This document shows, one piece after another, positions 50,205 to 61,200 of a DNA stretch of 64,000 bases. Both the position numbers and the translations under genes were made by a program. The notes below the pieces were generated by a model. It was not told the DNA's origin. It saw nothing but the letters and a program-made list of their open reading frames with translations, and searched no databases. This DNA comes from Streptomyces sp. NL15-2K. GTDB taxonomy: Bacteria > Actinomycetota > Actinomycetes > Streptomycetales > Streptomycetaceae. Numbering within the stretch: position 1 is the first letter of the stretch; each line of letters opens with the position of its first letter. The stretch is from assembly GCF_030551255.1 (NCBI RefSeq), contig NZ_CP130630.1:2461501-2525500 (forward strand). The letters run 5' to 3'.

Positions 50205-50959
50205 TTTTCGTTCCTCCACATGGGAAGTCGGGGGCTCTCGTGGGGTTCGGGCCCGTGAGGCGCAGCCAGGGATCCGGTCGCCCGGATTCCGGACATGCCG
50301 TGCCCCTGACAAGCGCTGTGGGGGGAAGTATTCGGCCGAACGGACGGTCGGCGCAAGAGCGCCTTTCGGCCGTCAACCTTTGAACGATCTCTGTGGTCTA
50401 CGCGAGATGACCGCTCGTCAGAGCAGGTTCCGCTCCCCCGCCTCGACGGCGTCGTCCAGCGTGTTCCCCGGTGGCGGGAAGGGGCAGACGAAGTGGTCGG
50501 CGAACGCGCAGGGGGGCAGCAGGGCGCGGTTGAAGTCGACCGTCGTACGGCCCTCGGCGTCGGGCGCGGCCGGCCGCAGGAACCGGAAGCGGTAACTGCT
50601 GTCCCCGCTCGTGGTATCGCCGAAAACCGCCCACAGCGAGCCGTCGCCCTGGACCGTCACCTGGAGGGTCGCCTCCCGCCCGTCCAGGACGAAGGCCAGC
50701 TCACCGCCGAGGCCGAGACCGCGCTCGCGTCCGTCCGCGTTCTCGACGCGTACGGTGCGGTCCTCGCCGTACGGCGTGAAGCGCCCCGGCACCGACCAGC
50801 GCGCGGCGTACGGCGTGGCCTCGATTCCGCGGAACGCCCGGCGGGCCGCGGAGGCGGGGTCGAAGTCGCGTACGCCCCACACGCCCTCGCGGACCAGCAC
50901 GACCAGCCGGCGCTCGCCGTACGCCACCCGAGCGGCAGCCGCCGGTCCGGCGTCGGCCG

Positions 50960-51229
50960 CTAGGGCCTGTGTCGAAAGTGGCGTCGTCCGCCCGAAGGGC
51001 GGGCCGGGCGCCCGCCGCGATGGGGGTCCCCCCGCTCGAGCGAAGCCGAGAGTGGGGGAGGCTGATGACTGCGTTGGTGCGTGCTCTCGGCGTGCCGGGC
51101 GGAAGGCCCCGTCGATGGACCGGATGTACTTGGGCTTTCGCCCGGTGCGGCGAGAGTGCGCCCGCCGCGGTAGCGGCTGATGTCACTGCGGCGTCGCCCG
51201 GCAGGCGCCACTTTCGACACAGGCCCTAG
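50960..51229. mobile_element. MITE copy 1 (262 bp plus CTAG target duplication)
   Basis: It is bounded by CTAG at 50960-50963 and 51226-51229. Inside are perfect 20-bp terminal inverted repeats GGCCTGTGTCGAAAGTGGCG (50964-50983) and its complement (51206-51225). There is no transposase. The CTAG duplication fits the YTAR targets of IS5-family enzymes. The interior (CGTCCGCCCGAAGGGCGGG ... GGGGGAGGCTGATG) is shared with the copy at 60236. Confidence 0.85.
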
Positions 51230-51366
51230 CCGCACCTCACCGCTGAAAGGCCGCCCGTCCACGCTGAGACCGTCCCCGGCGTCGGCCTCGAGCACGACCG
51301 CGTCATCCTTGACGGTCCATGTCCCGGGGATGTCCGGAAGTCGCCCGTCCGGATAGTCCTCCAGCC

Positions 51367-51400
51367 TGGGGGTGCCCCCAGGCCGTTTAGGCACTGGGGG
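51367..51400. repeat. Short G/C hairpin repeat inserted in the DUF1684 gene
   Basis: TGGGGGTGCCCCCAGGCCGT and the following TTAGGCACTGGGGG form a fold-back plus a GGGGG tail. It closely resembles the interior of MITE copy 2 (about 60426-60470, where TGGGGGCACCTCCCA and GGCAGTGGGGGAGCGTGCC occur). It shifts the reading frame. Confidence 0.6.
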
Positions 51401-51592
51401 AGCGTGCCCGTCAGCGCGAGCGGTCCGTAGGGCGCCGACACCGTCTCGACGCGGTGCTCGTGCCATCGCTTCCACGCGTCGGACGCGTCCGTCGTCATCT
51501 GATCAACCCTTCCACGTCGGGTCGGACCACCCGTGGGGTGAGCGCGAAGTCGCGCCCCGGTATTCCGTATCGAGCCCGGATGTCGGGGGCTT

Positions 51593-53386
51593 TCAGGCGG
51601 CCGCGCGGCTGCTGAGCGCCCGCAGGAACAGCAGCGCCGCCCGTGCCGTGGCGTCGTTCTGCCGGAACGCCGGCCCGCCGGTGCGCGGCCGGGTGAACGC
51701 GCCGGAGCCCCGCGCGTCGGTGTGCGGCCCGAGCGCGAACCGCCGGGGGTGCGGCCGTCCGGCCCGGTCCAGGACCCGCCCGTCGGCGGGGTCGACGGAC
51801 AGCAGCCCGTCGGGAGTCACGGCGGCCCCGTCGGCGTACAGCTCCCGCAGCAGCGGATCCCGGGACCGCTCGACGGTGGGCTGCGGCAGCCGCGCCTCGA
51901 CGAGCGCCCGGGCCTCGACGACCGATCCCGGCACGGTGGCGCTCGACGCCCGGAACACACCGTCCTGCGCGGTGACGGTCATGTCGGCGCCCAGGAACTT
52001 CAGGACGCCCGCACGGGACAGCGCGAGCATCTGCCGCAGCCGGGGGCCGGGCGGCCCGGAGGCCAGATAGCTGAAGAAGCCGTGCCACCAGGGTCCGACG
52101 TCACCGAGCCGGACCAACTGGCCGTAGACGGACAGCAGCCCGAGGAAGACGGCGAAGTCGGGGCTGTGCGCCGGATCATGACGTCGCGTCAAGTCGGCCA
52201 TGACGTAACGGCGCAATCCCTCCTGAAGATCCTCGTACGAGCCGTACCGCAGTCCCTCCAGCGGACGGTCGAGCGCGGCGAGGTCGAGCCGGTCGGCGGG
52301 ATCGGGCACGGCGGACGCGACGAGGGCCGCACGCTCGGCCGGGTCGTCGCAGGCCGCGTACTTCTCCTCGAAGGCGGTCCAGGCGACGGCGGTCCGCTCG
52401 GGGTGGGCCGAGAACAGCCGGTGGTAGTGGGCGAAGCCCAACTCCTTCTCGATCAGCGGCCACACGTCCCGCCGGAAGTCGAAGCCTCCCGGCCGGGCGA
52501 GCAGCGAGTCGACCTGAGCCGGCCCGAAGAACCTGGGCAGCGGCGGCCGTTCACCGCTCCAGTCGTAGCCGATCTTGGAGTGGTACGGCACTCCGCGCCG
52601 CGAGCCGACGTACAGGACCGGCTCCCGCCCCGACGGCACGTACGTGTCCCCGACGTACCGGCCGCCCCGGCCCTCCGTCAGCAGCGCCATCAGGTCGACG
52701 AAGGCGAGCCCGAAGCCCCGGACGAGGACGGGGGCGCCGGGCGCGAGCGGGGACAGGTCGCTGTCGGCGGTGAAGTCCGGCGGGAGGTGGACGAGACCGT
52801 GGTCGCGCGCGTACGCGGTCAGCTCGCGCTGCTCGTCGTCCGGTTCGGCGTCCAGGTGGCCGAGAGCGAGGACGACCAGGTCGGCGAGGAGCGGACGCGG
52901 GCGGCCCTCCAGCCACACCTGCTGGCGGCCCTCGCGCGGCCCGCCGACGCGCAGGGCGCGCCGCGGATGGTGGTGGACGGTCACGCCCGGCGGCAGGGCG
53001 GCCACCGCCCGCTCGTGCACCCAGCGCAGGTACGCGCCCTGGAGTCTGCGGTCCGAGAAGGTACGGCCGTCGATGCCGGCCCATTCGTGCAGGGTGGGCC
53101 CCTCGCGCACGGGTCCGGCCATGTCGACCGTCTCGTCGGTGAACATGGTGACGTCCTCGGCGTGCGAGTTCATCCACAGCAGCGGCGACTGGGCCGCGCG
53201 CCAGATGCGTCCGGCGCCCGGTGGATGGGGGTCGACAAGGTGGATGTCGAGGCCCGAACCGGCGTACAGCTCGGGCGCGTTGGCGGCGACCCGCTCGATC
53301 AGGCCGGTCCCCCGTGGTCCGGCACCGACGATCACGAGAGAGGGCCTCGGCGCGGCGAGGGCTTGGGCGAGGGTGTCGGAGGACAT
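51593..53386 (-). CDS. FAD/NAD(P)-binding protein (NAD_binding_9 type)
   Basis: A 597-residue flavoprotein-like enzyme. The N-terminal Rossmann motif is LVIVGAGPRGTGLIERVAAN near residue 17. The family block IHLVDPHPPGAGRIWRAAQS and LWMNSHAEDVTMFTDE follows. A second dinucleotide region contains LADLVVLALGHLD, and VLVRGFGLAFVDLMALLTEG closes it near 230. The C-terminal half is long and mostly helical. This matches the 'FAD/NAD(P)-binding protein' family seen near amino acid and natural product genes in actinobacteria; the reaction is unknown. There is no signal peptide or membrane helix. It is encoded alone, downstream of a region with divergent transcription. Confidence 0.85.
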   Translation of the reverse strand: MSSDTLAQALAAPRPSLVIVGAGPRGTGLIERVAANAPELYAGSGLDIHLVDPHPPGAGRIWRAAQSPLLWMNSHAEDVTMFTDETVDMAGPVREGPTLHEWAGIDGRTFSDRRLQGAYLRWVHERAVAALPPGVTVHHHPRRALRVGGPREGRQQVWLEGRPRPLLADLVVLALGHLDAEPDDEQRELTAYARDHGLVHLPPDFTADSDLSPLAPGAPVLVRGFGLAFVDLMALLTEGRGGRYVGDTYVPSGREPVLYVGSRRGVPYHSKIGYDWSGERPPLPRFFGPAQVDSLLARPGGFDFRRDVWPLIEKELGFAHYHRLFSAHPERTAVAWTAFEEKYAACDDPAERAALVASAVPDPADRLDLAALDRPLEGLRYGSYEDLQEGLRRYVMADLTRRHDPAHSPDFAVFLGLLSVYGQLVRLGDVGPWWHGFFSYLASGPPGPRLRQMLALSRAGVLKFLGADMTVTAQDGVFRASSATVPGSVVEARALVEARLPQPTVERSRDPLLRELYADGAAVTPDGLLSVDPADGRVLDRAGRPHPRRFALGPHTDARGSGAFTRPRTGGPAFRQNDATARAALLFLRALSSRAAA

Positions 53387-53611
53387 GCGAAGGCTCCATG
53401 ACGGCGAGTCGGTAGAACTCGGTGAGTACCTTCACACGGACGCGCCGCAGAACGCGGCGCCGCGCGGCCGAGCCCCTCAGCAGGGCCGCTCTTCGAGACT
53501 ACGGGTCCCTTTCCCCTGGCTGTCAAGGTTGTCCGGACTGTGAGCAGTGCGTCTCAGGTCGTGCGTCACAACTCGGTTGACGCGGAACCGGATGCCTGTT
53601 CCACTTGGCCC

Positions 53612-53683
53612 ATGCATCGGCAGCAGTGGCTGGTCACGCGCTCCCACATCGACTTCGGTCGAGTGTGGTCCTCGTCCTGTTGA
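53612..53683 (+). CDS. Putative leader peptide (orphan)
   Basis: A 23-residue ORF MHRQQWLVTRSHIDFGRVWS plus SSC. It matches the pattern of Streptomyces attenuation leader peptides, typically ending R-[RS]-H-[VI]-D-[LF]-x-R-V-x-S-[AS]-x-C. Such peptides usually precede sulfur/cysteine genes. A hairpin followed by a pyrimidine run lies 14 bp after its stop. No plus-strand gene follows; the next gene is on the minus strand. No strong ribosome site is seen. Confidence 0.55.
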   Translation: MHRQQWLVTRSHIDFGRVWSSSC

Positions 53684-53696
53684 GCTGACCCCCTGC

Positions 53697-53726
53697 GCGC
53701 CCCGACCCCCTGATCCGGCGGGGCGC
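53697..53726 (+). terminator. Terminator/attenuator after the leader peptide
   Basis: GCGCCCCG (53697-53704) / CGGGGCGC (53719-53726) with a 14-base loop, followed by TTCTCGCGTTCTCCTTCTTC. The pyrimidine-rich tail makes it look like a real intrinsic terminator on the plus strand. Confidence 0.6.
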
Positions 53727-53803
53727 TTCTCGCGTTCTCCTTCTTCCTACGCCTTTTCTTCCTTCGCCCGCACACGGGCGGCCTTCACACGCGCGCCCTC
53801 CCC

Positions 53804-54988
53804 TCAGCAGCTGCACCCGCAGTCACAGCCGTCGCAACCGCAGTCGCACCCGTCGTCACCACAGCAGTTCCCGCAGCACTCACAGCAGCTGCAGCAGTCG
53901 CCGCAACCGCTGCAGTCGGCGTTGGCGCACAGTCCTTCCCTGCGCTCCCGGCTCCAGGGGTCCTCGTACGCGCCGCAGCACATCTGGCACGTGCAGGCGA
54001 GCCCCGCCCAGACCAGGCACCCCGCGAGCAGCCCGCGCCGGTCGCGGCGCGGCGGCTGGGGAGGCAGCGGCGGCCCTCCCGGACCACCGGGCGGGGCGTA
54101 CGGCCCGGACGGCGCGGATCCGTGCGCGCAGGAGGCGGTGCCGAAGGCCCGGTCCACGGAGGTGCGCAGTTCGTGCACGAGCAGCCGGTGCGCGAGCCGC
54201 CCGTCCGAGAAGGACGCCTCCCGCAGGGCGAGGCGTATCCCATGCAGGGCGTCGTCGGCGAGCCGCCGGGCCTCCGCCAGGGACGTCCCGGTCGCGGTGA
54301 GCGGGTTCCAGGCACCCGACGCGGCGTCGGTCTCCCTGTCCTCCACGGCGTCCAGGAGGTGGGCGAGCCGCCCGAAGAGCCGTCCGGCCTCGGCGAGCGG
54401 ATCGGCGTTGCCGGGCCGTCCGGCGAGGACCGCGGTGTGCGCGAAGGCCGCGGCGGTCGCGGTCTCGGTCGGCTCGGTGACGGTCAGCAGGGGCGTGCCG
54501 GGCCCGGCCAGCGCCTCGATGCCGAGCTGCCGGTCCACGGCGTCGACGAGTACGGCGGTGTCGAAGCCCACGACGGATCCGGTACGGGCCCCCGCGGCGC
54601 CCCAGCTCGCGGCGACCCGGCGTGCGGCGAGCGCCACCGGCCGTCGGGCGAGCAGCCCGTCCCCGTCGGCCACATGGTCGCGCACCTTGGCCGAGGCGAG
54701 CACCAGCGAGACGGCGGCCGCGAGCCGCGCCCCCTCACCGTGCGCGACGGACGCGGTACGCATTCCGCGCAGCGGACACGGTCCCGCCGTACGCCTGCCG
54801 GCACCGCCGCGCTCGGCCTGAGCTTCTGTCAAAACCGATATCAGCAAGCCGTCGTAGTTCGTCACCACCCGCGCGAACTGACCGTGGTCCTTACGCAGGG
54901 CGAGACACAGCCCGCACAAATGGGCCATCCACTGCGACTTGAGGGTCTCCCCCAGGCGGTGACGGCATGGCCTGACGATTCCGAACAA
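53804..54988 (-). CDS. DUF5685 protein with a cysteine-packed C-terminal tail
   Basis: A 394-residue protein. It starts MFGIVRPCRHRLGETLKSQW, then MAHLCGLCLALRKDHGQFAR, a conserved DUF5685 opening with a CxxC. Residues about 40-290 are helical (LLISVLTEAQAERGG, ACAD-like helices without transmembrane pattern). A Pro/Gly-rich linker (about 300-325) leads to a segment with a short hydrophobic stretch and a Cys cluster. The last ~35 residues contain about 20 Cys in repeated CxC and CxCGCDG-like units, a clear metal-binding or cross-linking tail. No signal peptide is apparent. The function is unknown. Confidence 0.85.
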   Translation of the reverse strand: MFGIVRPCRHRLGETLKSQWMAHLCGLCLALRKDHGQFARVVTNYDGLLISVLTEAQAERGGAGRRTAGPCPLRGMRTASVAHGEGARLAAAVSLVLASAKVRDHVADGDGLLARRPVALAARRVAASWGAAGARTGSVVGFDTAVLVDAVDRQLGIEALAGPGTPLLTVTEPTETATAAAFAHTAVLAGRPGNADPLAEAGRLFGRLAHLLDAVEDRETDAASGAWNPLTATGTSLAEARRLADDALHGIRLALREASFSDGRLAHRLLVHELRTSVDRAFGTASCAHGSAPSGPYAPPGGPGGPPLPPQPPRRDRRGLLAGCLVWAGLACTCQMCCGAYEDPWSRERREGLCANADCSGCGDCCSCCECCGNCCGDDGCDCGCDGCDCGCSC

Positions 54989-55311
54989 GACGATCCCCCG
55001 TGATGCCTACGGCGTTGAACTGCGGCGAGCCGCCGTGATGAGCTGCGCTGATCTGCGGCATCGTAGCGACCGCTTCGTTCACCCGTACGCACCGTCCATC
55101 ACCCGTACGCCGTGAAGAATCATATTTCACTCACAGTCAGCAGCCGTTTACGGCAGGACCCTTGGGACACATGGACTCTCGACGAATTGGCTGTGCACCA
55201 GTACCGTCACAAACCCCCCGCGCGGCGTCTATCCACTTGGCGCGCCGTCCGCATCATGGATGACCATAGGGATGCGGAAAGCAAGAATGACCGCTGTGAG
55301 AGGAGGCGTCC
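54989..55311. promoter_or_regulatory. Divergent region between the DUF5685 and sflA genes
   Basis: A 323-bp gap with a direct repeat CACCCGTACGC at 55080-55090 and 55100-55110 (20-bp period), next to an AT-rich patch (AGAATCATATTTCAC near 55116). The sflA end closes with the ribosome site GAGAGGAGG. No small gene is convincing here. Confidence 0.4.
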
Positions 55312-55749
55312 ATGGGATCGGTGCGCAAGGCGAGTGCCTGGCTGGGCCTCGTTGACGACAACGATGACGAGCGTTACTACGACGACGACTACTCCGAAGG
55401 GACCGAGCCCGGGGATGCCTGGGTCACCGACCCTCGGGTCAAGGTGGCCTCGGACGTGGCCGAGGAGAAGGGCCGCCGGATCGGCACGGTCACCCCGGAC
55501 AGTTTCCGGGACGCCCGCGCCATCGGCGAACTGTTCCGCGAAGGCGTTCCGGTCATCGTGAACCTCACGGCCATGGAGGCCGCCGACGCCAAGCGTGTCG
55601 TCGACTTCGCGGCGGGGCTGATTTTCGGCCTGCGGGGTTCCATCGACCGCGTGTCCAACCGTGTGTTTCTGCTGACCCCCGCCGACACGGAAATCGTCAG
55701 CGGGGATCCGGCCGCGCACCGGACGGACGGATTCTTCAACCAGAGCTGA
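55312..55749 (+). CDS. sflA: SepF-like protein SflA
   Basis: A 145-residue SepF homologue starting [20 protein letters not shown]. An acidic N-terminal linker (residues about 14-40, poly-Asp/Tyr) is followed by the SepF fold (about 45-140): [40 protein letters not shown] and [20 protein letters not shown]. SepF links FtsZ to the membrane and shapes the division ring. Streptomyces keep extra copies; the position and sequence fit SflA of S. coelicolor (SCO1749), which restrains FtsZ polymer positioning. The main sepF sits with ftsZ elsewhere, so this is a paralogue. The symbol is by similarity from memory. Confidence 0.88.
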
Positions 55750-55868
55750 GGCAGGGCCGCTCACCGGCCCTGCCCCGCGCAGGGTTCACCGGATCATCAC
55801 CGGAACGCGTCGAGTCCGGTGAGCGCCTTGCCCAGCACGAGCCGACGCACGACCGGAAGACCCCGGAG

Positions 55869-57473
55869 TCAAGCCGAGACGCGGGACTCGGCGACCTCCC
55901 TCGGCGAGGGCAGCTCCACCGCCTCGGTCTCAGCCTCACCGCACTGCATGACCCGCGGCAACCGCAACGCCATGACCGCCCCCAGCAACAACAGCCCCGC
56001 ACTCACCAGCAACGTCACGTGCAGTCCGTGCACGAAGCAGTCCTGAGCGGTCCGGCGCAGGGCCACGCCTGCCTCGCCCCCGAGCCGCCCGGCCACCTCG
56101 TACGCCTCGCCCAGCGAATGCCCCGCCGCCGCCGACGCGGCCGCCGGCACCCCCGGTACGGACGAGAGCCCGGGCGCATACGCCGCGTTCATCACACTGC
56201 CGAGCAGCGCGATCCCGATCCCCGCGCCCAGCTGGTACGACGTCTCGCCGATCGCCGCCGCCCCGCCCGCCTGCTCCGGCGGAGCCTCGCTCAGCATCGA
56301 CTCGTACGCTCCGAACAGCGTCGTCTCGAGCCCGAACCCCAGCAGCACGAACCCGAACAGCATCAGAGCGGTGTTGTCCTCCCCGCCCATCCCGGTCAGC
56401 AGCACCACCGCCACGGCCGTGAGACAGAACCCGAGGCTCACCATCAGCCGCGGCCCGAACCGCCGCAGCATCCGCGCGCCCGCCAAGCCCGCCGCCATCG
56501 CGGCGACCGTCAGCGGCAGCAGCCGTAGACCCGTCTGAAGCGGAGACAGCCCCAGCACCAGCTGCAGATACTGCGCCGCGATCAGCTCCAGACCCACCAG
56601 CGCGAGCATCGCCAGCACGATGCACCCCACCGACGTGCTGAACGCCGGCCGCGCGAACATCCGCAGGTCCACCAAGGGATGCGCCCGGCGCCGCTGACGC
56701 CGCACGAAGAGAACGATCAGCGCAGCGCCCGTCACCAGCGGCACCACCGTGAACGGGCCCAGTTCCCCGCCCCCGAGCCGCTTCACGCCCAGCACGATCC
56801 CGAACAGCCCGGCCGCCGCCATCAGCGCGCCGACCACGTCCCAGGGACCGTCGCCGTCCCCCTTCGACTCGGGCAGCAGCAGCCGCCCCACCGGCAGGCT
56901 GACCAGCATCAACGGGATGTTGATGAAGAAGACCGATCCCCACCAGAAGTGCTCCAGGAGGAAGCCGCCGAGAAGGGGCCCCACCGCCGCGCCCACCGCG
57001 GCCACCGCACTCCAGATCCCTATCGCCAGCGCCCGCTCCCGCCGGTCGGGAAAGACCTGGCGCAGGATCGACAGCGTCGCGGGCATGATCATCGCGCCGC
57101 CGACACCGAGCAGTGCCCGCGCCGCGATCAGCACCTGGGCGCTGTCGGCACAGGCGGCCATGGCGGAGGCGACGCCGAAGAGTCCGTAACCGAGAAGGAG
57201 GACCCGTCTGCGGCCGACGCGGTCGCCGAGCGTGCCGAAGAGGATCAGCAGCGAGGCGCAGACCAGCGGATAGATGTCGACGATCCAGAGCAGCTCTATC
57301 CCGCCGGGCTTGAGGTCCTCGGAGACGGCGGGCACCGCCACGTGCAGCACGGTCGCGTCGAGGGCGACGAGGAGCAGGCTGACGCAGAGGACGACGAGGA
57401 CGACCCAGCGGTTGGCACCGGCCCCGGCCGCCCGACGGCGCAGCCCCATGGCGGCCGTGGTCGTCCCGGACAT
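55869..57473 (-). CDS. MFS drug exporter (DHA2, 14 TMS)
   Basis: A 534-residue multidrug exporter of the DHA2 family. ATG 57473 follows GGGAGG. Fourteen helices start near residue 22 (WVVLVVLCVSLLLVALDATV). Motif A is FGTLGDRVGRRRVLLLGYG near 80, and motif C, typical of drug:H+ antiporters, is AIGIWSAVAAVGAAVGPLLG near 150. LDATVLHVAVPAV is the DHA2 motif D1. The C-terminal tail is polar. It is divergent from the PIG-V-like gene across 260 bp that holds a 14-bp palindrome. The substrate is unknown and no dedicated regulator is adjacent. Confidence 0.94.
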   Translation of the reverse strand: MSGTTTAAMGLRRRAAGAGANRWVVLVVLCVSLLLVALDATVLHVAVPAVSEDLKPGGIELLWIVDIYPLVCASLLILFGTLGDRVGRRRVLLLGYGLFGVASAMAACADSAQVLIAARALLGVGGAMIMPATLSILRQVFPDRRERALAIGIWSAVAAVGAAVGPLLGGFLLEHFWWGSVFFINIPLMLVSLPVGRLLLPESKGDGDGPWDVVGALMAAAGLFGIVLGVKRLGGGELGPFTVVPLVTGAALIVLFVRRQRRRAHPLVDLRMFARPAFSTSVGCIVLAMLALVGLELIAAQYLQLVLGLSPLQTGLRLLPLTVAAMAAGLAGARMLRRFGPRLMVSLGFCLTAVAVVLLTGMGGEDNTALMLFGFVLLGFGLETTLFGAYESMLSEAPPEQAGGAAAIGETSYQLGAGIGIALLGSVMNAAYAPGLSSVPGVPAAASAAAGHSLGEAYEVAGRLGGEAGVALRRTAQDCFVHGLHVTLLVSAGLLLLGAVMALRLPRVMQCGEAETEAVELPSPREVAESRVSA

Positions 57474-57654
57474 GTACGTACCTCCCAGATGTTCCCTCGC
57501 ATTCGGCGGGCTCACGGGGTGGGGACTCCCCGTGACTCGGCCGGAGAGGAGCGGTGGTCTCCGGCCCGCGCAACGAATGGCGAGTGACACGTCAGCGTAC
57601 GCGAGTCCGTGCCGGTACCAAGTGGCGGACCTCTCAGACCTGTGCGGAACGTGT

Positions 57655-57668
57655 GTGGCGTACGCCAC
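57655..57668. promoter_or_regulatory. Perfect 14-bp palindrome between the exporter and PIG-V genes
   Basis: GTGGCGTACGCCAC is fully self-complementary. It lies in the divergent gap, 182 bp before the exporter start and 66 bp before the PIG-V-like start. It may be a repressor site. A weaker minus-strand promoter candidate (TTGGTA-N16-TACGCT) lies nearby at about 57596-57623. Confidence 0.45.
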
Positions 57669-57733
57669 TCCCCTCTGCCGCGAGCACGCCCCGGCGGACG
57701 GCCCGGTTCCGTACGGGGTCGATAATCGGGCCC

Positions 57734-58936
57734 GTGACCGATCTTGAGACGCGCGCGGCTCCGCCCGGCGCCGCGGCCCTGCGCCGTGCGGCCCCTGCCC
57801 TCCTCGGGTACGCGGCCGTACGCGCTCTGGGCCTGCTCGCGCTGGCGCTGTGGAGCGCGGCGCGCGACAAGAGCGCGTACACACTGCTGACCGCCCGCTG
57901 GGACGCGCTGTGGTACACGCGGGTCGCCGAGCGGGGGTACGGCTACGAGGTGCGCCTGCCGAACGGCGACGTGCACTCCAATCTCGCCTTCTTCCCGCTG
58001 CTGCCCTGGCTGGAGCGGGCGCTGGCCGCGGTGACCCCGCTGTCGTACGCCGACGCGGGCTTCGTCGTCGCCCTGCTCGCCTCGCTCGCCGCGGCCTGGG
58101 GGATCTTCGCGGTGGCGGATCATGTGTACGGCAGCCATGAAGAAGGGCGCGAAGCGCGGCCTTGGAAGGGTGGTGGCGGGAGACGGGTGGGCGTCTGCGC
58201 GGTCCTGCTGTGGGCCGTGCTTCCCGTCGGGATCGTGCAGTCGATGGCGTACAGCGAGTCGCTGTTCACGGCGCTGGCCGCCTGGTCGCTGTACGCGGTC
58301 CTGACCGGCCGCTGGGTGACGGCGGGCGCCCTGGCCTGTCTGGCGGGCCTGACCCGCCCGGTGGGCCTCGCCGTGGTGGCGGCGGTGTGGGCGGCGGCGA
58401 TCGCCTCGTTCGGGCGGGACCGTGGCACGCCCGGCCTCGCCAAGCGTCGCGCCCTCGGCATGCTGCTCGCCCCGCTCGGCGCAGCGGCCTACGTCCTGTG
58501 GGTCGGCCACCGCACCGGCAACGGCCCGCTCGGGTATCTCGACGTCCAGGCCGGCTGGCGCAACGGCTTCGACGGCGGCTACGCCTTCGCCCGCTTCGTC
58601 GCCGACAAGTTCACGTCGCTTCCGTCGGCCCTCGCGGGCGTGGGGCTGATCGTCGGGGTCGGGCTGGTGGTCTGGCTGTATGTCGTCTGCGTACGGCAGG
58701 CCCAGCCGCTCCCGCTGCTGGTGTACGCCGGTGTCGTCACCGCGCTCGCCCTGTGCGCGTCGAGCTACTTCGGCTCGAAACCGCGCCTGCTGATGCCCGC
58801 CTTCCCCCTGCTGCTGCCCCTCGCGCTCGCCCTGGCCCGGCTGCGTACGCCCAGGTCGGCGCTGGTCCTGGGCACCGTCGCGGCGGCGTGTGCGACATAT
58901 GGGGCGTTCTGGCTGAACGGCTCCGGTCCGCCATGA
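57734..58936 (+). CDS. PIG-V-like mannosyltransferase (GT-C)
   Basis: A 400-residue integral membrane protein. The GTG start gives VTDLETRAAPPGAAALRRAA. About ten helices are present. The first outer loop holds LTARWDALWYTRVAERGYGY, the PIG-V (GPI mannosyltransferase 2-like) motif with the acidic catalytic residue expected in GT-C enzymes. Further landmarks are HSNLAFFPLLPWL, SMAYSESLFTALAAWSLYAV and LTRPVGLAVVAA. In actinobacteria such proteins use polyprenyl-phosphate mannose to mannosylate membrane or secreted products. It is encoded alone. Confidence 0.88.
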   Translation: MTDLETRAAPPGAAALRRAAPALLGYAAVRALGLLALALWSAARDKSAYTLLTARWDALWYTRVAERGYGYEVRLPNGDVHSNLAFFPLLPWLERALAAVTPLSYADAGFVVALLASLAAAWGIFAVADHVYGSHEEGREARPWKGGGGRRVGVCAVLLWAVLPVGIVQSMAYSESLFTALAAWSLYAVLTGRWVTAGALACLAGLTRPVGLAVVAAVWAAAIASFGRDRGTPGLAKRRALGMLLAPLGAAAYVLWVGHRTGNGPLGYLDVQAGWRNGFDGGYAFARFVADKFTSLPSALAGVGLIVGVGLVVWLYVVCVRQAQPLPLLVYAGVVTALALCASSYFGSKPRLLMPAFPLLLPLALALARLRTPRSALVLGTVAAACATYGAFWLNGSGPP

Positions 58937-59175
58937 TCGACTCCGAGGCGTCGATGAGCACTCGGATAATTCCAGCCCATGATTCGGTGAACGAATTCAT
59001 AAGCACCATAAAACCGCCACCCGGAACGATCAAAGGAATTGCAGGGTAGCGGACGTCCGGCTTTGCGGATTCCTCAGAAATAAACCTCTCCCTGAGAGGA
59101 ATCCCACATCACATCGTCATCACAAAGCCGTGGATTCGCAGGGCAACTGCGCTCACTCGCTGTAACGTCGATTAG
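58937..59175. other. AT-richer intergenic region upstream of the PAP2 gene
   Basis: A 239-bp gap of lower GC than its flanks. It holds a small hairpin CCTCTC-CCT-GAGAGG (59085-59099), which could end the PIG-V transcript, and probably the PAP2 promoter. An open frame of 38 codons begins at 58933 but has no ribosome site, so it is not called. Confidence 0.45.
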
Positions 59176-60177
59176 GTGCGTACCGAACGAACTCTCACCC
59201 GTCTGGACCGGGTGTTCGCCAGGCTCGACCGTGAGCCGGAACGACCGGCCCACATCGATGTGCCGAAGATGAGTAGGCACCGGGTCGCGCTGTTCGCCGG
59301 GGCTCTCGCCTTCTATCTGGCGATCGTGTGGCTCGTGGTGATCACCTCGTGGCTGGTCCGCCTCGACTGGCAGGTCATGTTCTTCCGGCCGTACCAGCAG
59401 TGGGCGGGGATCCACTGGTTCGTCGACTACTACGTGGTGCTCGGCCAGCGCGGCCCGACCGCGGTGATGGTCGCGGCCTGGCTGGGCTGGCGTTCCTGGC
59501 GGCAGCACACGCTGCGCCCGCTGCTGACCCTGGGCACGTCGCTGCTGCTGCTGAACATCACGGTCGGTGCGGCCAAGATCGGCATGGGCCGGCTCGGCCC
59601 TCACTACGCGACGACCATCGGCTCGAACGAGATGGGCCTGGGCGGCGATATATTTCCCAGCGGCCACACCGCCAACGCCGTGGTGACCTGGGGCATCCTG
59701 GCGTATCTGGCCTCCACCCCGAGAGCGCGCCGCTGGCTGTCCGCCCTGTCGGCGGTGGTCTCGCTCGGCGTCGGAATGGCCACGGTCTACCTCGGTACGC
59801 ACTGGCTCAGCGACGTACTCCTCGGCTGGGTCGCGGGCCTGCTGATCCTGCTGGCCCTGCCGTGGTTCGAGCCGCTGATGGCCCGCGCCGAGGCCGGGAT
59901 CTTCGACCTGCGCGACCGCTGGCGCGCCCGCCACCGCAGCACGGTGCCGGCATCGCTGTCGCCCGTCGAGGCTCCCGTGCTGGTCAAGACGTATGCGGCC
60001 GGGCAGAACGAGACCGCGGCGCGTTCGCCCCGGGCGCCGGTCTACCTGGCCCCGGGCCCGCACACGGCCCGCTCGGAGCGCACACCGGTCACCCCGGTCG
60101 GCAGCCGCCGCCCACCGCAGTCGGACCGCGGCGTGCGCGGTACGACATCGCCCGCCCGCCCCGTCACAGGCGGCTGA
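59176..60177 (+). CDS. PAP2-family membrane phosphatase
   Basis: A 333-residue membrane phosphatase of the type 2 phosphatidic acid phosphatase family. The GTG start gives VRTERTLTRLDRVFARLDRE. Five to six helices span about residues 40-240. The PAP2 catalytic motifs are KIGMGRLGP near 135 (shortened C1), PSGHTANAV near 163 with the catalytic His, and GTHWLSDVLLG near 213 with the second His. The last 90 residues are basic, Pro/Ser/Thr-rich and probably cytosolic. Likely substrates are lipid phosphates such as undecaprenyl pyrophosphate or phosphatidate. A strong terminator, now split by a MITE, follows. Confidence 0.9.
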   Translation: MRTERTLTRLDRVFARLDREPERPAHIDVPKMSRHRVALFAGALAFYLAIVWLVVITSWLVRLDWQVMFFRPYQQWAGIHWFVDYYVVLGQRGPTAVMVAAWLGWRSWRQHTLRPLLTLGTSLLLLNITVGAAKIGMGRLGPHYATTIGSNEMGLGGDIFPSGHTANAVVTWGILAYLASTPRARRWLSALSAVVSLGVGMATVYLGTHWLSDVLLGWVAGLLILLALPWFEPLMARAEAGIFDLRDRWRARHRSTVPASLSPVEAPVLVKTYAAGQNETAARSPRAPVYLAPGPHTARSERTPVTPVGSRRPPQSDRGVRGTTSPARPVTGG

Positions 60178-60216
60178 CACGAGCCGGCGGGGCCGGTACG
60201 CACCCCTCCCCCGCAC

Positions 60217-60524
60217 ACGACGGCCCCGGCTCCTTCTAGGCCCTGTCGTCAAATTCCCGTCGTCCGCCCGAAGGGCGGGCCGCGCGCCCGCCGCGATGGG
60301 GGTCCCCCCGCTCGAGCGAAGCCGAGAGTGGGGGAGGCTGATGTCCGCGTAGGTGCGTGCTCTCGGCGCGCCGGGCGCAGGCCCTCGTACTGGTTGTACG
60401 TGGGTCTGCGCCCGGTGCGGCGAGTGGGGGCACCTCCCACGCCTTTAAGGCAGTGGGGGAGCGTGCCTGGCGTCGCGCGGCAGGCGGGAATTTGACGACA
60501 GGGCCTAGGAGCCGGGGCCGTCGT
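60217..60524. terminator. 17-bp terminator stem interrupted in its loop by a MITE
   Basis: The arms ACGACGGCCCCGGCTCC (60217-60233) and GGAGCCGGGGCCGTCGT (60508-60524) are perfectly complementary. Without the MITE and one CTAG they would be joined by the loop TTCTA. The hairpin sits between the convergent PAP2 and I78-inhibitor genes and would have served both. Confidence 0.75.
60236..60508. mobile_element. MITE copy 2 (265 bp plus CTAG target duplication)
   Basis: It is bounded by CTAG at 60236-60239 and 60505-60508. The perfect 20-bp terminal inverted repeats are GCCCTGTCGTCAAATTCCCG (60240-60259) and its complement (60485-60504). The interior shares long stretches with copy 1 at 50960, including CGTCCGCCCGAAGGGCGGGC and the CCGCTCGAGCGAAGCCGAGA segment. 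The two tips differ in sequence from copy 1. No transposase is present. Confidence 0.85.
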
Positions 60525-60555
60525 CGTCCTGCAGCAGAGCCTGTGTCACAGGCTC

Positions 60556-60771
60556 TCAGCCCTTCCAGGCCCGGGCCACGCGGCCGTCCTTCACCTCGAA
60601 GTTCAGCCGCCCCACCCGGTACTCCATCGTGATGATCGCCCCCGGCGGCAGCGAGCGCACGGTCGACCACCCCCGCTCGCGCGCGAGCCGCTCGGCGCTG
60701 TCGGCATCGAGGCCCACGTAGGTGTCCGGACTGTCGTCGGGTTCGGCGGAAGGACTCGGAATCGGTGCCAT
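60556..60771 (-). CDS. Small I78-like peptidase inhibitor family protein
   Basis: A 71-residue cytoplasmic protein starting MAPIPSPSAEPDDSPDTYVG. The region from residue 18 fits the I78 inhibitor pattern: YVGLDADSAERLARERGWST, then the R-S-L-P-P-G loop, the TMEYRVGRLNFEVKDGRVAR strands and a final aromatic (AWKG). Family members inhibit serine proteases, and several secreted proteases are encoded in this window, but no signal peptide is present here. It converges on the PAP2 gene across the split terminator. Confidence 0.75.
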   Translation of the reverse strand: MAPIPSPSAEPDDSPDTYVGLDADSAERLARERGWSTVRSLPPGAIITMEYRVGRLNFEVKDGRVARAWKG

Positions 60772-61200
60772 ACGGCAACGCTAGGCCCTGTCCGGCGGCC
60801 GGGGAAGTCGGGGCCCGCATCCCGGGTCACGCGTCCCTCTCCGGTCACGCTTCTGTCACAGAATCACGACACACGTTTCCGTCGAACTCCGTCACACGTA
60901 TGAGCGGTTCTCTACGCCTTCCGCAGGTATTCGAACGCAATTCCCGCGTGTCGCCACGACTGCGGGAAAAGCCCGGCGGAAAGTTCCCGGAGAACCGCCC
61001 CCGCCCCCCTTTTCCCGCTGATTACGGGCGGGCCGGCGGAAGCCGAGGCCGCATAGGAAATGCATGGTTCCGGCACAGAACCCCCCGTACGTCCCCAGTC
61101 GGAGCACGCGACGGCGCGAGCATCATGACGGGAGCTCGCGACCACGCGTGGCGCGGGCTCAGCGGGCCCGGGGCGCGACGAGCGAAGGGGCGAGCGAGCG
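60772..61200. promoter_or_regulatory. Long upstream region of the orphan ctaD
   Basis: A 429-bp gap upstream of the oxidase gene. The part 60840-61060 is relatively AT-rich for this genome (runs such as TTCCGTCGAACTCC and TTTTCCCGCTGATTACGG), as expected for a promoter with a long leader. The ctaD ribosome site is GAAGGGG near the end. I see no Rex-type or other known operator and no convincing small gene. Confidence 0.4.

Follow-up and report, generated by a model that had tools for sequence, protein, structure and literature searches.

A probable MITE-like superfamily in Streptomyces: a conserved one-strand hairpin with many kinds of ends

The window analysed here, a stretch of 64,000 nt from Streptomyces sp. 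NL15-2K, contains two short elements that have related interiors and different ends, and in each of them the two ends are matched to one another. This raises the question of what keeps or exchanges both ends together, for which an initial annotation proposed recognition by different transposases, hairpin-based gene conversion or selection for the stem itself. Both copies are present (Table 1), with CTAG on each side and 20-bp tips that are perfect within each copy, and the tip pairs differ between the copies at 8 of 20 positions. The description of the interior as nearly identical was too strong. Aligned to copy 2, copy 1 agrees at 150 of 165 bases over its positions 25–195 and at 36 of 49 over positions 196–246; the contrast between tips and interior in these two copies is a matter of degree. 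The right third of copy 2 also contains an extra small hairpin compared to copy 1. The tip pattern has four matches in the window against a mean of 0.05 in shuffled sequence, and positions 50700–60800 gave no match in Rfam at E up to 1.

The flanking CTAG had been read as a duplication. This is supported for copy 1 by one relative (L164; L numbers denote loci), in which the region is collinear and uninterrupted, with a single CGAG at the empty site. The element is also absent at this site from a second relative (L165), where the join is too diverged. L161, L162 and L163 lack copy 2, and their flanks have diverged too far for its exact site to be seen. A lone small hairpin at 51367–51403, in the same coding region as copy 1, resembles the second side hairpin of copy 2 and falls in an alignment gap with both L164 and L165, which suggests that the small side hairpins may themselves be mobile.

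Table 1. Features of the two copies in the window, and two further tip types carried by the same core
Feature	Position	Strand	Sequence	Remarks
Copy 1	50960..51229	+ (strand whose hairpin is kept)		270 nt counting CTAG at each end
Copy 1 left tip	50964..50983	+	GGCCTGTGTCGAAAGTGGCG	
Copy 1 right tip	51206..51225	-		perfect inverted match to left tip
Copy 1 conserved apical core	51077..51154	+		78 nt; read from sequence; same core definition as in the 202-element set
Copy 2	60236..60508	+		273 nt counting CTAG at each end
Copy 2 left tip	60240..60259	+	GCCCTGTCGTCAAATTCCCG	
Copy 2 right tip	60485..60504	-		perfect inverted match to left tip
Copy 2 conserved apical core	60353..60424	+		72 nt; read from sequence; same core definition as in the 202-element set
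Part of small side hairpin common to copies 1 and 2	51035..51061	+		second match 60311-60337
Second small side hairpin, in copy 2, absent in copy 1	60425..60462	+		pattern match 60448-60467
Type II tip			TGCC[CG]CGGCAGGCAACGTT	e.g. L093-L098, L100
Type III tip			GGCCCTTCTGATGGATCTCC	L021

Many such elements are present in the genome of origin. Copy 1 as query gives 65 matches and the tip pattern gives 85 (reversed control, 0). Elements tabulated with both ends number 50; end pairs with more than two mismatches (except the hybrid L083) and one unrelated pair in L003 were dropped before this count. The tabulated elements are 69–280 nt long with their flanks, too short for a transposase. Each of the length classes 179–182, 214–220, 238–241 and 270–280 nt contains several tip classes, and tips and length therefore assort freely. 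The 181-nt form looks to be the basic one, with longer forms adding small side hairpins at places that recur. In this genome the same core also occurs between the wholly different ends of types II and III. Type II tips have 152 matches at up to three mismatches (control, 0), from which about 75 further copies are inferred, and each of 12 small type II regions that were read contains at least one such element. The total for the genome is roughly 125 sites (50 tabulated and about 75 of type II). Three hybrid elements (L381, L383 and L083) carry unlike tip classes at their two ends and are possible recombinants. At L025 and L077 (4.42 and 5.19 Mb in the same genome) a type I and a type II element adjoin, with one CTAG common to both.

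The family extends across the genus. A covariance model built from 13 elements of the genome of origin matches 114 of 150 genomes of its own genus (taken as Streptomyces) at E up to 0.001, no more than 17 candidates having been scored in any one genome. Across the class the model finds 28 of 394 genomes, 26 belonging to the same genus and two lying outside it with weak matches (E 1.3e-6 and 1.5e-4). A scan of named genomes with the exact core pattern matched at least 115 stretches; among the 80 loci listed, 77 are from Streptomyces, two from 'Actinobacteria bacterium OV450' and one from Kitasatospora. The Streptomyces carrying the core include S. coeruleorubidus ATCC 13740 and S. narbonensis JCM 4147. 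Matches also occur in 17 plasmid records (16 Streptomyces, one Embleya) and in no phage record. Among the open-access papers listed by literature searches, none was recognised as describing these elements, and five tip or module sequences are absent from the open-access texts searched.

The conserved core is joined to a wide range of ends. Core hits in the examined loci number 221, of which 202 gave element boundaries (55 from the genome of origin by locus number and 147 others) and 19 without boundaries were dropped. These 202 elements have 103 different left tips, about seven of which, by eye, are shifted by boundary errors. By name pattern the tips divide into types I (157, the rest class), II (29), IV (7), III (6), V (2) and VI (1). 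An identical 72-nt core is joined to GGCCTGTGTCGAAAGTGGCG, GGCCTGTGTCGGAAGTGGCG, GGCGTGTTGCGAAAGTCCCG and GGCTTGTTTCGAAAGTCCCG, and among the 202 elements no exact core is common to different tip types. The commonest flank is CTAG, present on both sides of 126 elements under a boundary score that favoured CTAG-like flanks. The two tips differ at no position in 95 elements, at one in 63, at two in 27 and at three in 17. Gradual, independent divergence of left and right tips is consequently not the main pattern, since the tips are perfect in 39 of the 50 tabulated elements (over 20 bp) and in 95 of the 202, but 107 of the 202 carry one to three mismatches, and the count for the 202 is conditional on a boundary finder that took at most three.

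Each copy in the window folds end to end as a whole-element hairpin, with z-scores of -10.3 for copy 1 and -12.5 for copy 2. The reverse strand of copy 2 is less stable (-179.8 versus -207.2 kcal/mol for the plus strand) and still lies beyond its own shuffles (z -11.4). In the alignment of the 13 elements from the genome of origin, paired cells make up 99.5%, and both partners have changed in 19 of the 79 pairs. None of 500 shuffles reaches the observed covariation on any of five measures, in a test that relatedness can inflate. Structures slid along the alignment have at most five pairs changed on both sides versus the 19 observed, a comparison in which the structure is favoured because it was derived from the same 13 sequences. 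A larger set of 75 elements combines these 13 with 62 others found with the covariance model and realigned by MAFFT; three repeated elements and all reverse-strand and partial hits were left out. Of its 85 pair columns (79 of the structure and six added by hand), 48 contain two or more Watson-Crick types, and pairs vary in the tips as well as close to the apex, in the inner stem. Nearly all 75 sequences retain tandem UG/GU pairs (columns 60-138 in 73 and columns 61-137 in 75). Covariation beyond the controls, as is looked for in structured RNAs, is present, and the matching of the tips belongs to this wider pairing of the element.

The mismatches that interrupt the pairing differ in kind between the two strands. 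When 50 elements are folded with G.U pairs forbidden, the mismatches filled on the plus strand comprise 229 G.U and 11 A.C, while those on the reverse strand comprise 7 G.U and 215 A.C. G.G (116) and T.T (55) are also frequent on the plus strand of these 50, exceeding their complements, and strand composition bias could be the source of part of the asymmetry. The 75-element set contains 743 G.U versus 36 A.C cells, G.U occurring in 47 of the 85 pair columns and A.C in 21. The tips of the 202 elements have 103 G.U, 17 A.C and 48 other mismatches; since 57 of these 168 fall at positions 2 and 20, the mismatches are not independent events. In tips with at most one mismatch per element, 46 G.U are found versus 3 A.C. 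Single changes at mostly Watson-Crick pairs run towards G.U in 51 cases (C>T 39, A>G 12) and towards A.C in 18, and unpaired sites show six transitions, five in the same way (C>T or A>G); six of the 75 sequences were left out of these transition counts. The plus-strand fold is the more stable in all 202 elements, by a mean of 36 kcal/mol. This asymmetry is predicted by the folding of one strand and not by the reading of double-stranded ends. Against a one-strand reading, the reverse strand, too, is more stable than its shuffles, and A.C occurs in those 21 columns. A mutation bias on one strand may also lie behind the asymmetry, with the unpaired transitions leaning the same way. Selection for the stem, as first proposed, is thus supported more widely than at the tips, by stems that covary along the whole element and by strand-specific mismatch types, and is not separated by them from conversion. 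NucS mismatch repair favours G.T, G.G and T.T; it was set aside by reasoning as the source of the strand bias, because a mismatch that is G.T when read on one strand is A.C on the opposite one.

Near copies show concerted change. Over 279 nt the elements of L003 and L004 (8.12 and 4.05 Mb) have just two differences, which lie at the partner positions 16 and 264, so that each tip has one. Near copies were joined in minimum spanning trees with 104 elements and 72 edges of up to 10 differences, on which 34 matched double changes are observed versus 4.9 expected by chance; the 38 edges of up to four differences carry five versus 0.44. The tree edges are not independent of one another, and neither are the alignment cells counted above. 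Single changes on the edges connect Watson-Crick pairs with G.U in 137 cases, with A.C in 24 and with other mismatches in 58. A comparison of flanks among the 202 elements, in search of in-place tip change, yielded two pairs of elements with similar flanks left and right. One is the orthologous insertion L192/L125, whose left flanks are identical at 128 of 140 positions and right flanks at 98 of 153. Here both partners of pairs 21-161 (in the tips) and 80-118 have been replaced in place, and next to the former the two bases of tip pair 22-160 have both changed to give a mismatch. In the orthologous L247/L256, with flanks identical at 137 of 140 positions each, a 27-nt side hairpin differs, an apparent in-place gain or loss. 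The concerted changes fit templated correction, and selection too. Hairpin-based gene conversion, the second of the proposed causes, accordingly suits the matched double changes and is not separated from selection by them.

Some tip classes are also found at the ends of insertion sequences. Fourteen insertion sequences were hand-chosen from a longer list and both ends of each were tested; with 28 ends, a few low shuffle counts would arise by chance. At both of their ends, five of the 14 (L346, L352, L354b, L356 and L363) match an element tip class, with 7–8 of 8 inner positions at each, a level reached by 0–18 of 500 shuffles per end. One (L049) matches at one end, and eight do not match. The tip class of copy 2 matches L356 and L363, the two ends of the latter differing from each other at 6 of 18 positions, and that of copy 1 has no partner among the 14. 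The involvement of different transposases thus gains partial support from the five, including those with the class of copy 2, and this support does not extend to the class of copy 1. L043, L346, L354 and L356 encode DUF4096 and/or DDE_Tnp_1, and we take the insertion sequences to be of the IS5 type from the Pfam descriptions. A 1.1-kb insertion sequence with six copies in the genome of origin has the ends CTAG GGCCTGTGTGACGTTGTGATCA.

This likeness is short. By blastn, L346, L352 and L363 resemble elements over 14–22 bp at their ends, and nine insertion sequences compared to the 202 elements gave no interior match better than E 0.026. On these alignments the element appears not to be a deleted copy of an insertion sequence, with likeness confined to the ends. 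Among the tip matches listed for the genome of origin, no copy 1 or copy 2 tip pair was seen by eye to lie 0.8–2 kb apart. Eight larger regions of this genome near unpaired type II tips or a transposase contain short elements, a lone tip or no tip, and none has a transposase between two such tips. On contig C1 of the same genome (66 places) there are many DDE_Tnp_1 transposases, some within insertion sequences that have other CTAG-adjoining ends (such as CTAG AAGATCACTG and CTAG TAGGACTCCG).

The feature is real and larger than could be seen from the window, namely a MITE-like superfamily in which a conserved one-strand hairpin occurs with ends of many kinds. In our view both copies probably belong to one such superfamily of non-autonomous elements of Streptomyces, moved by several IS5-type transposases and with arms kept matched by one-strand selection and/or hairpin-templated correction. 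The sequences themselves show that core and stems make up a single end-to-end hairpin in one defined strand, with the tips as its foot, that changes in tips and inner stems come in matched pairs, and that the same core is bounded by about six kinds of tip. Some tip classes appear equal to the outer part of IS5-type insertion-sequence ends that are also at CTAG. The elements would be moved in trans by IS5-type transposases, and a tip class would persist only as long as a single enzyme accepts both of its ends. Once one arm has changed, the other would follow through hairpin-templated replication and/or through selection for a stable fold, presumably that of the G/T-rich strand, whether in RNA or in single-stranded DNA; a role for the folded strand at the RNA level is a guess. 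New tip types would arise once the core comes between the ends of another element. The hairpin (through correction and/or selection), together with the need of a transposase for two equal ends, would explain why both ends go together. The original idea that something keeps or exchanges both ends together is partly supported. Counting against this reading, nine of the 14 insertion sequences have no tip-class match at both ends, no autonomous relative with the tips of copy 1 turned up among them, tip pair 22-160 of L192/L125 became a mismatch, and the antisense lean of tandem elements puts the other strand into most read-through mRNA. A bolder version, which we hold tentatively and as the less probable way to see these elements, is that of a mobile structured RNA. 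Here the core would be a folded RNA or single-stranded DNA that spreads via the borrowed ends of several unrelated CTAG-targeting transposons, with the tips as exchangeable adaptors and the whole element, its transposon ends among the rest, evolving as one base-paired molecule.

Templated correction could in principle act alone, with template switching during replication keeping long inverted repeats matched, the folded strand functionless and the asymmetry a product of mutation bias. The tree edges carry double transversions about as commonly as double transitions (17 and 14) though single G.U changes (137) exceed other mismatched singles (58), which suits one-step events, and adjacent pairs change together, as at columns 45 and 46 in L119/L166. 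The lean of the unpaired transitions, five of six in one direction, agrees with mutation bias. PMC8794818 describes template switching that yields single-event compensatory changes and so fixes the stems of RNA hairpins; the process is alike in keeping stems matched, but concerns RNA genes there and is proposed here for a mobile element, including its ends. Correction alone is nevertheless unlikely. The excess of G.U over A.C is strong at varying pair positions, the core is conserved across species, and correction would not keep mismatched pairs such as the tandem UG/GU retained in nearly all 75 elements.

MITEs of IS5-type insertion sequences are short, lack a transposase gene, have terminal inverted repeats and a short target duplication, and carry tips common to larger insertion sequences; MITEs are usually taken as leftovers of one transposon. 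The present elements are like them in being short and transposase-free, with terminal inverted repeats; some of their tip classes match insertion-sequence ends, and their CTAG flanks may mark a target duplication. They are unlike them in an interior with no match better than E 0.026 to the nine insertion sequences compared (an origin from the autonomous element is not required of all MITEs), in one core with about six tip types and in inner stems that covary. It is quite improbable that they are simply ordinary MITE families, in which tips match only since each transposase needs two equal ends and interior likeness reflects common descent and recombination between copies. Such families would account for the matches of tip classes to insertion-sequence ends, for hybrid tips (L083; L381 and L383) and for exact 72-nt cores common to elements of different tip class, as copy exchange would give. 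They leave the covariation of the inner stems unexplained, as no end-binding enzyme should read inner stems, and likewise the strand-specific mismatch types. In the superfamily as we describe it, a folded core is conserved across a genus while the ends differ and vary by the rules of RNA stems. It is now testable how long inverted repeats stay matched, by selection or by templated correction, and also if a folded RNA or single strand can be the unit of selection of a non-autonomous element.

A REPIN-like single-strand DNA element, whose plus-strand hairpin would be the substrate of a tyrosine transposase, is very improbable: pairing on one strand with compensatory changes recalls the REPINs, inverted-repeat mobile hairpins with compensatory changes on both sides according to PMC3116915, but the flanks are CTAG/CTAG in 126 of 202 elements (by a score favouring such flanks) and the tips match DDE-type insertion sequences. 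Compared to the REPINs of that paper, the present elements differ in being 69–280 nt long and branched, with CTAG flanks, IS5-like tips, no REP foot GTAG as a rule and a probably different transposase link. The GTAG- and CGTC-tagged palindromic repeats described in PMC3733652 are similarly short, palindromic and spread through genomes, but consist of units of 20–40 bp, the CGTC group being without a dedicated transposase. The word Actinobacteria is absent from the main text of that paper.

The placement of the elements relative to genes was assessed with gene calls from a simple codon model (244 training genes) for the 180 elements whose flanks extend at least 300 bp in both directions. The context is convergent in 63, tandem with the element antisense in 59, tandem sense in 25 and divergent in 21, with one side uncalled in 12. 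Tandem elements are more often antisense than sense (59 versus 25, p 2.7e-4 with elements taken as independent), and read-through mRNA therefore usually carries the other strand. A facing reading frame ends at the element or within 1 bp of it in 48 cases on the left and 57 on the right. Of these frames, 40 of 48 on the left and 38 of 57 on the right close with the TAG at the flank, the rest being open or closed otherwise. With roughly 125 sites in one genome, many of them at the 3' ends of genes, the family may affect many transcripts. Elements in the genome of origin may tend to lie on plus in the left chromosome arm and on minus in the right one, as do 37 of 54 when the split is at the midpoint (p 0.013) and 39 of 54 with the most favourable of five splits (p 0.0024); among the matches listed in 13 other contigs the count is 30 of 52, hardly a lean. 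By the codon model, copy 1 (L001) has minus-strand gene calls on both sides, and copy 2 (L011) sits between convergent gene calls.
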